Below, in pieces: positions 45,785 through 51,060 of a DNA stretch of 64,000 nucleotides. Position numbers and translations under genes: made by a program. This DNA is from Lacibacter luteus. Its GTDB lineage: Bacteria; Bacteroidota; Bacteroidia; Chitinophagales; Chitinophagaceae. The notes under the pieces are model-generated. The model ran no database searches. It saw only the letters and a program-made list of their open reading frames with translations, and was not told the origin of the DNA. The stretch covers positions 310,001 to 374,000 of the forward strand of contig NZ_SDHW01000002.1 in the NCBI RefSeq assembly GCF_004118265.1. Reading direction: 5' to 3'. The first letter of the stretch is position 1. Each line of letters begins with the position of its first letter.

Positions 45785-45895
45785 AGAAGAAGATGTCTGA
45801 TTCAGGATGGAGGATTTATGATTTGTTACGGGTTACAAGTTGCCGGTTTCTTGTTCCTCGTGTCTTGAACCCTGTATCTAGCTTCTTATCCACTT
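45785..45895. repeat. Dispersed intergenic repeat (copy related to 52059-52141)
   Basis: On the minus strand this stretch holds GAGGAACAAGAAAC and AAATCATAAATCC...ATCCTGAATCAGACATC, closely similar to the plus-strand stretch before 52142. Both lie at gene borders. Confidence 0.5.
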
Positions 45896-45972
45896 CGTTG
45901 CAAGAGAAAAAGAATCGGTATATTCACAGTTCTGTTAAACACAGGAACATTTCATCATTAAAATTTATTGCT

Positions 45973-46134
45973 ATGTCGCTGTTCAATACCGGAAAAAACA
46001 AAAAGGATAAAAAGAAAAACGCACCTGCAGGTAACAAATCAATGTTTATTGCCCCGAAAGGTGGTGGTAAGGCCAATACAAAAACGGCAAGCAGCGCCGG
46101 CAAACATGTAGGTGGCGCTCAGCGTGGAGCTTAA
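45973..46134 (+). CDS. Small basic protein of unknown function
   Basis: A 53-residue protein MSLFNTGKNKKDKKKN... with many Lys, Gly and Asn, a short hydrophobic-aromatic piece (KSMFIAPKGGG) and a Gly/Ala-rich end (GKHVGGAQRGA). Strongly basic, probably disordered, possibly RNA- or DNA-binding. I chose the ATG at 45973 because the longer frame upstream is built of a dispersed repeat. It is followed by a strong terminator, which supports a real gene. I do not recognise the family. Confidence 0.6.
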   Translation: MSLFNTGKNKKDKKKNAPAGNKSMFIAPKGGGKANTKTASSAGKHVGGAQRGA

Positions 46135-46154: not shown

Positions 46155-46187
46155 GCCCTTCAGATTCTAAACCTGAAGGGCTTTTTT
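46155..46187 (+). terminator. Terminator of the small basic protein gene
   Basis: GCCCTTCAG, loop of 9, CTGAAGGGC then six T. Strong hairpin 20 bases after the stop. Confidence 0.88.
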
Positions 46188-46211: not shown

Positions 46212-47879
46212 TCAGTAATCGAACAGAATACCCGTTTGAGCAATATATTTTTCAAGCCTGTTATAAGCTGCTTCAATAACATCTGCAGTTGCTTTTCCTT
46301 TTTTTGATTCTTTACGCAGCAATGCTCCTTCCTTATCGTACACAAATAACAACTCACCTGTTCCGGTTGACGTAACAGTTGACAACTGATCGAATGAATC
46401 GTATTTATAAATCAATTCAGTTTGCCCTTGTTTGATGCGTGTAACTTTCTGGCTGGCTGAATAAGTAATTGTGGTTGTAACGGTATCTTCCTGCATCCTT
46501 ACCGGATTGCCACTGCTGTTATACGTTATCTTTTTTTCTTTTGTGCTGTTGGTGCGTTTGTCGGTTGTAAGCATACGACTGGCTTTGTTCCATGCGGTAT
46601 CGATCTCAGCCTTTACCAATATTGTATCATTTTCATAGGTAACAGGAATACAATTGCTGTTGTAAGTGTAAAGATGTTTCATATTCGCCTTTAAAACATG
46701 ATCGGGCATTTCGCATTGTTCATTGTTCAACTCTTCAAATAATTCACTGTTCTTTTTATAAATGAAGTGATAGATATAAGAACTGCCATCCGGTTTATCC
46801 CTGATCTCGTATTCGTAATAAGCACTGTCAGCTTTTACACTTCCTTTTGGTAATGAAAGAACCAGTGTTGCATAATGATTGTCGTTTACATTTCCTTCTG
46901 CATCAAAAAAAGTTTTGTATTCGTACATACTTACATTTCCATTTGGCTCTGTAACTTTTTTGCAGAAGAAAGTAGTGGTTTCATATTCAATAAGCATGCT
47001 GGCGCCGTTTGTATAATGAATACCCGTCATGTTAAAAGATGAATCGTAACTATGGCGATAGGTATTGTTGGCAATGTCTTTTGTTTTAACAAGCGCCAAA
47101 CCTTCGTACCAATAAAATGAAGTTCCCTGTCTGCTTTTAATGCTTATAACCCTGCCATCTTTATTTGTAGTGAAAGTAAAAATGTTGCCGCCTTTGTCTT
47201 TTAGTTGGGCAATACGGTTTGCAGCATTGTAACTGATGCTGTAAACAAGTCGACCATCGGCTTTATATCGACCGATAAACAAACCCCTGTTGTTGAACAG
47301 ATCGTAACTGCCATCATCGTTTGTGCGTTTGAAACCAGCAGTTGTTTTTGTGAGTTGCTGGTAGCCAAGATCCTGGCTTTCCCATTTTGAATATTCAGTA
47401 ATTACAGGTGGTTTCAACAAACCTTCATCTGTATAAAATAACCATTTGCGGAAACGTGCTTCCAGGTTGTTTCGCATTTCCCTGCGAAATTGGTTAATGG
47501 CAGCAGGATTGTTTTCAATGTCTTCGTTTTGCAATGCTGCTTTCACCAATTGATTGATGCATTGCGTAATGAGTGCTTCATTTGTTTCAGCCGGAGAGAA
47601 CTGGTTGGGCGAACCTGCGCCAAATTCTTTAATGAGTACATGACCATCACCGATCATGTACAGTCTTGTTTCGATTTCTGAACCCCATCCAATACCAAAC
47701 AAACCTTTTTCACTCGACTTGGAATTATAGGTACGCATGATCTCCATACCGTTGAAGCGTGCAAGATCATGATCGGTATATGAAATATAAAAATTCCCGT
47801 TTTTAATGTTAACGCCTGCCGTTGCTGATACTGTTATAAAAAACAGCAAGGCAGTTAAAACCTGTTTTGTACGAATCAT
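46212..47879 (-). CDS. Secreted YD-repeat (RHS-like) protein
   Basis: A 555-residue exported protein with signal peptide ending at VSATAG. It opens with MEIMRTYNSKSSEKGLFGIGWGSEIE, in parts, the motif found at the start of RHS/DUF6531 proteins. YD-type strands follow (DGSYDLFNNRGLFIGRYKADGR, YSISYNAANRIAQLKDKGGN, YSASQKVTRIKQGQTELIYKYDSFDQL), seen in parts. There is no C-terminal RHS core boundary (DPxGxR) and no toxin domain. It starts 1 base after the stop codon of the caspase-TPR gene, so the two are translationally coupled. Confidence 0.82.
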   Translation of the reverse strand: MIRTKQVLTALLFFITVSATAGVNIKNGNFYISYTDHDLARFNGMEIMRTYNSKSSEKGLFGIGWGSEIETRLYMIGDGHVLIKEFGAGSPNQFSPAETNEALITQCINQLVKAALQNEDIENNPAAINQFRREMRNNLEARFRKWLFYTDEGLLKPPVITEYSKWESQDLGYQQLTKTTAGFKRTNDDGSYDLFNNRGLFIGRYKADGRLVYSISYNAANRIAQLKDKGGNIFTFTTNKDGRVISIKSRQGTSFYWYEGLALVKTKDIANNTYRHSYDSSFNMTGIHYTNGASMLIEYETTTFFCKKVTEPNGNVSMYEYKTFFDAEGNVNDNHYATLVLSLPKGSVKADSAYYEYEIRDKPDGSSYIYHFIYKKNSELFEELNNEQCEMPDHVLKANMKHLYTYNSNCIPVTYENDTILVKAEIDTAWNKASRMLTTDKRTNSTKEKKITYNSSGNPVRMQEDTVTTTITYSASQKVTRIKQGQTELIYKYDSFDQLSTVTSTGTGELLFVYDKEGALLRKESKKGKATADVIEAAYNRLEKYIAQTGILFDY

Positions 47880-47880
47880 G

Positions 47881-50800
47881 TTATGGTAATTGTTTCAACT
47901 GTTGTAATAATTGAATAGTTGTTTTACTGTATTGCCTGCTCCAGTTGTTTGTATTTTGCCAGTTCGGATTGTTTTTATTTTCTTTCGTCAACCATTCCGC
48001 TGCTTTTTCTTTTTGCCCTGCCGCAAACAAAGAAGCAGCAAGCCCGAGATAAGAAGGGTTGCTAGTTTGCGTAAGTGATGCTTCAAACAACTTCGCTGCT
48101 TCTGAATAGTTACCTTCATCAATTTTACAGCAACCGAGCAATTGCATAAAACGGTAACGATAACCTGCTGTAAGATCCTGTTGTGTCAATAGTTGTTCCA
48201 GCAACGGAATTGCTTTTTTGTATTCCCCGTTGATATAATACAACGATGCTGTTTTGAAGTAGAGATCACTTTGACTTGCAGGAATAAAAGTAGTTGCAAG
48301 CGAAAGCAATGAAAGTGCTTCTGCCTGTTTTTGATCGAGCAGAAGATTATCGGCTTTATCAATCAATACAAGCGAAATATCTTTTATCGAAAACAATAGC
48401 GGATCGTTATCGTGTGCTTTCTTGAAATAACGAACAGCGTTTGCAAAATCATTTATTTCAAGCGATGTATAGGCAAGATTACCGTAGGCATTTGCATAAC
48501 TGCTGTCGGCAGTCAATGCTTTAGCATATTGCAAGGCTGCTTCTGTAAAGTTGCCGTTTGCATAATGAAAATTGCCAAGCAGGTTGTAGAGATCTGGATT
48601 CTGACCGAAATAATTTTGTGCCTGTTGCAAAATAGCTAATGCACTGTCGGGCTTATTCAGTTTCAGCCATGATTCATGCATCCATTCATAGTTCTCCCAA
48701 TACCATGGGCTAACGGCTAGTCCTTTTTTATACCAACTGATGGCTTGTTTATAGTTCTTCGTTAACTGAAAATATCTTCCATAGTAAGCATATGCTGAAG
48801 GTTTGTCTTCGTTGATGCGAATACTTTCTTTAAACAAACGGATTGCTTCAGCCGTATCTTTCAATTGTGCTTTGCCCCATGCTTTTCCTGCATATGCCCA
48901 GGTGTAATAGGGATTGTTGCTGATGGCTGCCTGGTATAAACTGTCGGCCAGTTTCCATTCCTGCAGCAATGGTCCTTCACGATAATAATCGGCCAACTCT
49001 GTAAGCCCTTCAGCAAAATAAGGTTCACGATTAACAGACTGTATCAACAGGTCGTTGGTTTGTTTTGCATTGATCTTTTTATACAACTCTGCAAGATGAT
49101 GATACGCATACACCATGTTACTGTCGGCATGAATGGCTTTGGTAAAAAATGTTTCTGCTTTTTTAATATTTCCCCGGTCTTTAAAAACCAAACCAAGATT
49201 ACTGTATTCTGTAGCAGCATCAACCGAATCAATTTTAATAGAATAATTATAGAGCTGCTCTGCTTCGTTGTAACGCTTCAGATCGTAATAAACATTTGCT
49301 AGATTGTTATAAGGCCAGCTGAATGCCGGTGCAAGTTTGATCACTTCTTTAAACACAGCAATCGCTTCGTTAACTCTGTTCTGGCTCCGCAGGGCATTAC
49401 CCAAACTACTTCGTGGATAGGTCCATGTTGGAATAAGTTCAATCGCCTGCCTGTAATATTTTTCAGCCAGCGGAAAATTATCCTGGTATTCTGCAACAAG
49501 TCCTAATGCATGCAACACAAATGCAGCATCCTGTTCTGCTGCCAATGCTTCCTGCAATAATTTTTTTGCAACAGGGTACATTTTGTAATTCTTCCCACGC
49601 AGGTAAGAGTACGATTCAAGATAGCGGGCATAGATGTAATAGATCTTGTGTTCATAATCTGATTTGTCCAGCACAGACAACAGCAGTTTACTTTTTTCAG
49701 CCGCTGCCATAAAATATGAAGCAGATGGCTGATTGTTATTACCTAACAATACAGTGTTCACTGCCTGTTGTGGATCAATTGATAGCTGTTGTACAAGTTT
49801 CAGTTTAATGAAGCGCAACCAATCGGCAGGAAACGATTTTTGTTTTACAAACGAAGTATAAAATGTAATTGCTTCTTTATGCTGTTCGTTTTTTAGAGCG
49901 CTATTTAACTTGTTCAGCAAGTCTTGTTGTGCTGTGGTTAATGTTGTTAAACCTGCGTTGGGTTCAACAACAATTGATCTTGCTGTTGTGTTCGATTCTT
50001 TAATTTCCTGCATTGCATTTAACCGAAGACTATCGAATGCAATCAGTTTCATTGCAGGAGATACCGTCATTACTACTTTACCTCCCGATGATGCACCAAT
50101 GTTTGGTTCCTGTAATTCTTTCGATTCCTGGAATACGTTGTTGTACACATACATATTCAGTTCGTTCACATTTATTTTATTGTTGAGCGGACTGTTATCG
50201 GCAGCGCCCATCATTCCATGCACGAGATAAAAAGTGAAATAACCATGTCCGATCAACTCACTTTCAAAAGAGCGTTGATTGGCGCCACAGCTTAAATAAC
50301 GAATGGTGTTGCGGAAAGAAGTAAGAGCAGATTCACTTAACAGGTTTGCACCTTCTTCATTAACTGTTTGACCACTGTGGCAGGCATCCAACACAATACT
50401 TACCTGTATACTACTTTGCGAAAGTTTTGAAACAACATCGTTCAGATCTTTAAAACTGAGTGTGCCCTGTGCACCGGTGTAAGCCCGTTCAATGTTTACA
50501 TCGCTGCAAAGAAGATAGCCAATATAGCCACCTGCATTGGCAGTGTCTTTTGATTTTTGAATATCACCATGACCGGAAAAGTAAAAGATCACTTCATCGC
50601 CCGGTTTCATTTTTTTGGTTAGTAAAGAACGGATGGCAGCGTTCACTGCAGCACTATTGGCTTTTTTATTGAGCAGCAGCTGTAGATTTTCTTTGCTCAC
50701 TGTTTTTGTTTCAAGTAAGAAGCGGGCAAACAAAGCTGCATCCTTATCTGCAACATTCAGTTGTAAGCGTGGCGCATCGTAATCGGAAACGCCTACTATA

Positions 50801-50940
50801 ATTGCATGGGTTGTTTTTGCTCCTCCTGCCGCAGCCACTTCTTCTTCGGAAGAGCCCTTTGCATTTTGTTGAGCAAAGAGATGCTGTGTTGTGGCTGAGA
50901 AAAGGGCGAGGACGGTAAATAGATAGATGCGGCGGTACAT
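47881..50940 (-). CDS. Secreted caspase-like (C14) protein with C-terminal TPR repeats
   Basis: A 1019-residue exported protein: signal peptide ending at HLFAQQ. A caspase/metacaspase domain (about 40-290) has HAIIVGVSDYD, catalytic His124 in IFYFSGHGD and catalytic Cys187 in IVLDACHSG. The C-terminal two thirds hold many TPR repeats, for example FPLAEKYYRQAIELIPTWTYP and YNEAEQLYNYSIKID. Start at 50940 gives a clean signal peptide; the earlier ATG at 51009 adds 23 unrelated residues. Unlike cytoplasmic orthocaspases this one is predicted outside the cytoplasm. It is followed 1 base later by the YD-repeat gene, a possible substrate or partner. Confidence 0.88.
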   Translation of the reverse strand: MYRRIYLFTVLALFSATTQHLFAQQNAKGSSEEEVAAAGGAKTTHAIIVGVSDYDAPRLQLNVADKDAALFARFLLETKTVSKENLQLLLNKKANSAAVNAAIRSLLTKKMKPGDEVIFYFSGHGDIQKSKDTANAGGYIGYLLCSDVNIERAYTGAQGTLSFKDLNDVVSKLSQSSIQVSIVLDACHSGQTVNEEGANLLSESALTSFRNTIRYLSCGANQRSFESELIGHGYFTFYLVHGMMGAADNSPLNNKINVNELNMYVYNNVFQESKELQEPNIGASSGGKVVMTVSPAMKLIAFDSLRLNAMQEIKESNTTARSIVVEPNAGLTTLTTAQQDLLNKLNSALKNEQHKEAITFYTSFVKQKSFPADWLRFIKLKLVQQLSIDPQQAVNTVLLGNNNQPSASYFMAAAEKSKLLLSVLDKSDYEHKIYYIYARYLESYSYLRGKNYKMYPVAKKLLQEALAAEQDAAFVLHALGLVAEYQDNFPLAEKYYRQAIELIPTWTYPRSSLGNALRSQNRVNEAIAVFKEVIKLAPAFSWPYNNLANVYYDLKRYNEAEQLYNYSIKIDSVDAATEYSNLGLVFKDRGNIKKAETFFTKAIHADSNMVYAYHHLAELYKKINAKQTNDLLIQSVNREPYFAEGLTELADYYREGPLLQEWKLADSLYQAAISNNPYYTWAYAGKAWGKAQLKDTAEAIRLFKESIRINEDKPSAYAYYGRYFQLTKNYKQAISWYKKGLAVSPWYWENYEWMHESWLKLNKPDSALAILQQAQNYFGQNPDLYNLLGNFHYANGNFTEAALQYAKALTADSSYANAYGNLAYTSLEINDFANAVRYFKKAHDNDPLLFSIKDISLVLIDKADNLLLDQKQAEALSLLSLATTFIPASQSDLYFKTASLYYINGEYKKAIPLLEQLLTQQDLTAGYRYRFMQLLGCCKIDEGNYSEAAKLFEASLTQTSNPSYLGLAASLFAAGQKEKAAEWLTKENKNNPNWQNTNNWSRQYSKTTIQLLQQLKQLP

Positions 50941-51033: not shown

Positions 51034-51060
51034 AAAAGGTTGTCGAGTGACAACCTTTTA
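51034..51060 (-). terminator. Terminator of the cupin/JmjC gene
   Basis: AAAAGGTTGTC, loop GAGT, GACAACCTTTT. Lies 17 bases after the stop at 51077 on the minus strand. Confidence 0.8.

Follow-up and report, generated by a model that had tools for sequence, protein, structure and literature searches.

The caspase-TPR gene and the YD-repeat gene

The window analysed here is a stretch of 64,000 nucleotides of Lacibacter luteus DNA. Two genes follow one another on its minus strand at 46212-50940, first a caspase-TPR gene (47881..50940, 1019 aa product) and then a YD-repeat gene (46212..47879, 555 aa product), with 1 base between the stop of the former and the start of the latter. Open reading frames and translations confirm this spacing, as given in the initial annotation of this DNA. 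The signal peptides that it attributed to both products are apparent as signal-like N-termini, judging by sequence and hydropathy only: about residues 1-23 of the caspase (50872..50940, like all features below on the minus strand; hydropathy peak of 2.25 at residue 5, AQ end by eye) and about residues 1-21 of the YD protein (47817..47879; peak of 2.75 at residue 7). Terminator-like hairpins are found on either side of the pair, one of 12 pairs located 3′ of the YD gene (46155..46181), the other of 11 pairs in the interval that separates the caspase gene from its upstream neighbour (51034..51059). Both are pattern matches only, and with 8 such sites in the window against 4.8 in shuffles, the argument is their position and not their number. 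The flanking genes look housekeeping-like by eye, no immunity gene was seen nearby, and none of the listed ORFs follows the YD gene immediately on the same strand. A small ORF at 45793-46134, whose C-terminal stretch is basic and Gly/Lys-rich, faces the YD gene.

In the caspase protein, Pfam detects Peptidase_C14 at residues 45-283 (E 3.9e-12) together with many TPR families, and one PADLOC caspase profile matches the same domain (E 4.9e-18). The predicted structure (pLDDT 86.4) contains a metacaspase-like domain at residues 43-296 (50053..50814), delimited by structure comparison and Pfam, which aligns with Arabidopsis metacaspase 4 (6w8r_B) over 230 residues with a VIA-align Z of 22.6 and an rmsd of 2.9. 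The His/Cys dyad is kept, as had been read earlier from the SGHGD and DACHSG motifs: the catalytic His124 (codon 50569..50571) and Cys187 (codon 50380..50382) are invariant in 12/12 aligned caspase-TPR proteins. So are Asp67 (codon 50740-50742) and Asp185 (codon 50386..50388), which align to the metacaspase positions that form, according to PMC6426788, the pocket accepting a basic P1 residue. By these alignments, the protein has the predicted acidic pocket expected of metacaspases and orthocaspases (C14B). A TPR superhelix is predicted from about residue 388 to 1016 (47893..49779), based on the helices of the model and a Z of 23.0 to the OGT TPR domain 1w3b_A.

Residues 12-40 are modelled with pLDDT <50, and from family to family there is little conservation in the linker that follows the signal peptide. 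A K/R-G-[STA] motif is present in this linker at residues 27-30 (50851-50862). Nine of the 11 caspases of the pairs have such a motif just past the signal peptide, at positions 23-30, and K/R-G-[STAIV] is found in 4/10 unlinked caspases at positions 22-32. The motif could be a self-processing site.

The YD protein begins with a DUF6531 domain (Pfam, residues 23-84, E 1.3e-11; 47628..47813) carrying the GVNIKNGNFYISYTD motif, in which K26, G28, N29 and F30 are invariant over 84 sequences. Pfam further reports RHS_repeat (E 6e-11), and NCBIfam, run on the window proteins, adds only a YD repeat for this protein. The AlphaFold model, built on the 84-row alignment (pLDDT 91.1, pTM 0.77), has a three-helix insertion at residues 101-151 (47427..47579; helices 101-117, 125-137 and 139-151), then an RHS/YD beta-spiral at residues 165-524 (46308..47387). 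Alignments and model place a C-terminal helix at residues 529-547 (46239..46295), which is conserved in the family and diverged in the window protein. The best structural matches are RHS shells, the Rhs core 8qjb_A giving a Z of 23.1 for 390 aligned residues of 1037, with an rmsd of 7.6. We read the model as an RHS fold of about half a shell, whose curvature, judged from the rmsd and low TM-scores, would differ. No match to the RHS core protease family or to a toxin tip was obtained with Pfam and NCBIfam, and PADLOC has no match for the protein. The C-terminus is conserved in alignments from Bacteroidota to Bdellovibrionota, without a variable tip. An RHS-like start and the absence of a toxin end had both been noted initially, and both hold.

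The Bd0109 family in two genomic settings

In Bacteriovoracia, the genes preceding YD encode, according to Pfam, RcpC/CpaB, a secretin, a ParA-T2SSE fusion (TadZ-TadA) and T2SSF (TadB), and the small genes 5′ of these are pilin-like by eye, with no Pfam match. This Tad operon pointed to the hit locus of Bdellovibrio, which was located in genome G771 by exact matches of all six published bd0108/bd0109 primers. There, the YD profile matches (E 5.5e-132) a 550-aa gene lying immediately between TadB and the 101-aa bd0108 gene, and the encoded Bd0109 sequence fits the published signal cleavage AFA-LV after residue 18 (PMC3818213). The window YD protein aligns with Bd0109 by BLASTP at E 4e-31, with 23% identity over 553 columns (query residues 5-547 of 555), and by profile comparison (hhalign) over 529 columns at E 2.4e-37. 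The two proteins have in common the start motif, R142, R185 and the C-terminal region. The match goes beyond what RHS proteins have in common, since other RHS proteins in Lacibacter reach only ~1e-4 over ~120 residues with YD, and only 2 of 395 genomes of the phylum pass 1e-20 (best 3 candidates per genome). We conclude from sequence and profile comparison that the window protein is homologous to Bd0109 over its full length and a member of its family, which the initial annotation had not recognised.

Bd0109 is described as a protein that could not be deleted in Bdellovibrio and whose tagged form is directed to the periplasm in E. coli (PMC3818213). It binds the disordered protein Bd0108 with a Kd of 45 uM (PMC3818213, PMC4267844), and its gene shares a transcript with bd0108 and pilus genes (PMC3818213, PMC4267844, PMC5430801). 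In the same three reports, the authors describe Bd0109 as devoid of protease and tip, and suggest that it encapsulates Bd0108.

YD-family matches were found in 343/368 genomes of Bdellovibrionota, the phylum of Bacteriovorax (best 3 candidates per genome), although RHS proteins of another kind may be among the weakest of them (E up to about 1e-22). Gene order was recorded for 82 YD genes, namely 80 relatives, kept out of 111 by a contig scan with the YD alignment that used two peptide patterns only, and the distant Bacteroidota gene of G458. TadB directly precedes 71 of them and a caspase 9; the remaining two follow a tandem YD gene and, in a gammaproteobacterial bin, a hydrolase gene. In that bin (L120:3-3379) the hydrolase-like gene, judged by eye, encodes a lipoprotein and is accompanied by a trypsin-like protease fragment, with neither TadB nor caspase. 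A gene of 80-89 aa lies directly behind the Bacteriovoracia YD gene in seven cases (L086:8609, L088:8620, L092:8616, L097:2517, L100:8609, L116:8616 and L075:8617), in the place of Bd0108; the products look secreted, bear Cys and are rich in Ser and Lys. Such a small protein in the Bd0108 place may be a general partner of the YD family.

The window differs on both sides of the YD gene: the upstream gene is the caspase gene and not TadB, and 3′ of it there is no Bd0108-like small gene, the next listed ORF being on the opposite strand at 77 bases. With the T2SSE/TadA model, the whole window genome gave 2 short weak hits, covering 60 and 82 of 370 positions, the best at 25.5 bits. Without an evident Tad ATPase, the Bd0109-family protein thus appears to work in this genome without a Tad pilus.

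All 11 Bacteroidota YD carriers found have a caspase-TPR gene directly upstream (these are the 9 caspase-preceded cases among the 82 YD genes, the window and G160). They belong to at least 3 families, Chitinophagaceae, Flavobacteriaceae (Leeuwenhoekiella, Lutibacter, Polaribacter and isolate SAT96) and the family of G458, and the gaps between the two genes are 1, 1, 1, 4, 67, 6, -4, 5, -4, -4 and 27 bases. Among 14 Lacibacter genomes, the same 5 hold orthologues of both YD and caspase-TPR (59-100% identity for the latter), adjacent in all 5, and the other 9 hold neither, several of them carrying other caspase genes. Over 244 genomes of the family, YD was found in 3, all Lacibacter, in a search of the best 5 candidates per genome that, like the other genome searches of family and phylum, makes absences weak. 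The idea of a pair unique to one genome is therefore rejected, 5/14 Lacibacter genomes and other Bacteroidota carrying it, and we conclude that in Bacteroidota the two genes form a conserved unit. The adjacency to which the initial annotation gave weight recurs throughout.

The association is looser from the caspase side. A caspase search of the phylum (best 2 candidates per genome) gave full-length caspase-TPR matches in two genomes, G000 and G458. These are also the two that have YD among the 395, and the caspase sequences of both were part of the query profile. Five other genomes of the phylum had partial caspase-TPR matches and no YD. Many further secreted-looking caspase-TPR proteins occur in the family without a YD partner (best 3 candidates per genome), and the Flavobacteriaceae loci, found through YD, are silent on how often their caspase occurs alone. 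In four of the latter loci (L070, L071, L072 and L082), the pair stands amid further clan CD proteases, with WD40-caspases on the opposite strand, and L072 has a secreted-looking TPR-CHAT gene directly upstream of the pair. Unlinked secreted-looking caspase genes of the family often adjoin a gene for a protein of 432-461 aa that has its own SGHG motif, mostly in convergent orientation (L050, L054, L055 and L056; same strand in L057).

The initial view of YD as a dedicated partner thus stands for Bacteroidota (11/11 carriers) and is half contradicted across all bacteria sampled, where YD is mostly without caspase (the 343/368 Bdellovibrionota genomes). The Bd0109 family is therefore at home in two contexts, with Tad pili in Bdellovibrionota and with the apparently secreted metacaspase-TPR in Bacteroidota. 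In literature that covers subscription journals thinly, we found no report on a caspase paired with such a YD-repeat partner, nor on a link between Bd0109 and a caspase. We rate the conserved enzymatic partner as the new part, the protein family itself being already known.

Evolution of the pair

In G247, the neighbours of the window pair, S1-type, JmjC-type and Mur-ligase-like genes (by eye), are 93, 97 and 89% identical, and there is no pair between the S1-type and JmjC-type genes. The same holds in G213 and G244, with two extra genes, and in G252 the pair is at a different genomic place. We conclude that the pair is gained or moved, or lost, as a unit. Both genes are under purifying selection, with dN/dS of about 0.09-0.13; between the window and G083, dN is about 0.19 and 0.11 for dS of 2.0 and 1.1, near saturation, so that the ratios are rough.

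A well supported clade of 12 comprises 10 of the 11 YD-linked caspases, and its other two members sit at the same YD loci; the caspase of G458 is outside. The first caspase tree hinted at an independent re-pairing in G458, yet a single clade for all YD-linked caspases is not rejected (p-AU 0.486, longer region, 23 rows), and re-pairing is not claimed. The simplest reading of these trees would be a single old pairing of caspase and YD. A tandem second YD gene lies behind the pair in G083 and G160 (L040:10983-12665 and L041:6529-8241), about 42% identical to the first, and in the YD tree the single YD of G252 groups closer to this second type. That tree covers 26 of the 70 Tad-linked rows, and two of its long branches meet, so that it gives no firm direction of gene transfer.

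A possible client-holding role

The initial annotation had proposed a processing pair, with Arg/Lys sites to be looked for in the YD protein. Over 13 caspase-linked YD proteins, 9 columns have K or R in at least 85% of the sequences, and these same columns are 96-100% K/R in 70 Tad-linked YD proteins, meaning that no conserved K/R site specific to the caspase-linked group was found in this comparison. A residue exchange distinguishes the groups in two columns (L60 for W, C410 for G). Of the 13 caspase-linked proteins, 12 have the Cys pair 389/410, the exception being the YD protein of G458. The lack of a specific K/R speaks against YD as a dedicated substrate, and a simple scheme in which the caspase cuts YD at a conserved site is left unsupported.

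Our best explanation, to which we give a probability of roughly 40%, is that YD serves as scaffold or client-holder, with the caspase as its partner protease. The cell envelope would be the site of action for both proteins. YD would be an open RHS half-shell that holds a secreted polypeptide in extended or disordered form, by analogy with Bd0109 and its disordered partner Bd0108. Through its TPR superhelix, the caspase-TPR protein would dock on this half-shell, and would cleave the held client after Arg or Lys, or be switched by it. The genomic arguments are the co-occurrence (5/14 congeners, 11/11 carriers), the compatibility with a single clade, the gain or loss as a unit and the purifying selection. 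To these are added the homology to Bd0109, the Bd0109-Bd0108 binding, the half shell without protease core and the absence of caspase-specific K/R. We count against it that no Bd0108-like gene lies behind the window YD and that 9 congeners live without the pair; the low affinity between Bd0108 and Bd0109 also makes the client-holder idea weak even in Bdellovibrio. On this explanation, one client-holding module would work for two different machines, a protease in Bacteroidota and the Tad pilus in predators. Somewhat more tentatively, the Bd0109 family may be a general secreted client-holding half-shell with a swappable partner machine, and the Bacteroidota pair would then be a proteolytic envelope switch on a module linked to the predator growth switch.

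Other readings fare less well than the client-holder one. That the caspase matures or destroys YD itself by cutting after Arg or Lys agrees with the adjacent, apparently coupled genes, the apparent export of both products and the metacaspase-like acidic pocket, and the K/R comparison above makes it unlikely for conserved sites, leaving room for a cut at a non-conserved one. We hold it equally doubtful that YD acts on the caspase as chaperone or inhibitor, its shell binding the low-confidence linker next to the signal peptide and keeping the protease off until a signal: residues 12-40 of the model, the disordered partner reported for Bd0109 (PMC4267844) and the gene order, caspase then YD directly, would suit such a role, and the poor conservation of the linker between families does not. 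Less probable still is a Tad-independent surface or appendage role kept since the Bd0109 ancestor, the caspase being an accessory processing enzyme; the Tad pilus as usual context of the family (71/82) speaks for it, the mere two short weak T2SSE/TadA hits of the window genome against it. A decayed or split RHS polymorphic toxin, released by the caspase, would account for the RHS fold and has a precedent in the caspase domains that act as releasing peptidases in polymorphic toxins (PMC3482391), yet it is very improbable given the conserved C-terminus without variable tip, the lack of a core protease match and the absence of a visible immunity gene. A cell-death or anti-phage defence device, which the PADLOC caspase match might suggest, is hardly credible for two exported-looking proteins between housekeeping-like flanks, of which YD has no PADLOC match and has relatives that are near-core genes of Bdellovibrionota.

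To our knowledge, the natural substrates of bacterial secreted metacaspases are largely unknown, and these enzymes now gain a conserved partner protein. Conversely, the pair offers a new route to the function of the little-understood Bd0109, encoded beside pilus genes in predatory Bdellovibrio: with a homologue that has a single, enzymatically testable partner, and close relatives without the pair, Bd0109 biochemistry becomes directly testable.

Compared with Bd0109 and its Bacteriovoracia homologues, the window YD protein is homologous over the full length, has the same start motif and C-terminal helix, and like them neither protease nor toxin tip, with an N-terminus that looks signal-like by hydropathy; it differs by its partner, a caspase-TPR gene instead of the position between TadB and Bd0108, and by a locus without Tad operon. 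With RHS effector shells and Tc-toxin cages it shares the beta-spiral fold (Z up to 23.1), at about half the length, and no delivery domain, toxin end or protease core was matched. RHS repeats and caspase domains also occur in the polymorphic toxins that use caspases as releasing peptidases (PMC3482391), whereas the window proteins are separate, lack a toxin domain and have a conserved C-terminus. Finally, the caspase resembles metacaspases and orthocaspases (C14B) in its His/Cys dyad, acidic-pocket Asp residues and predicted fold (Z 22.6), and is set apart from them by its apparent export, its long fused TPR superhelix and its dedicated YD partner.
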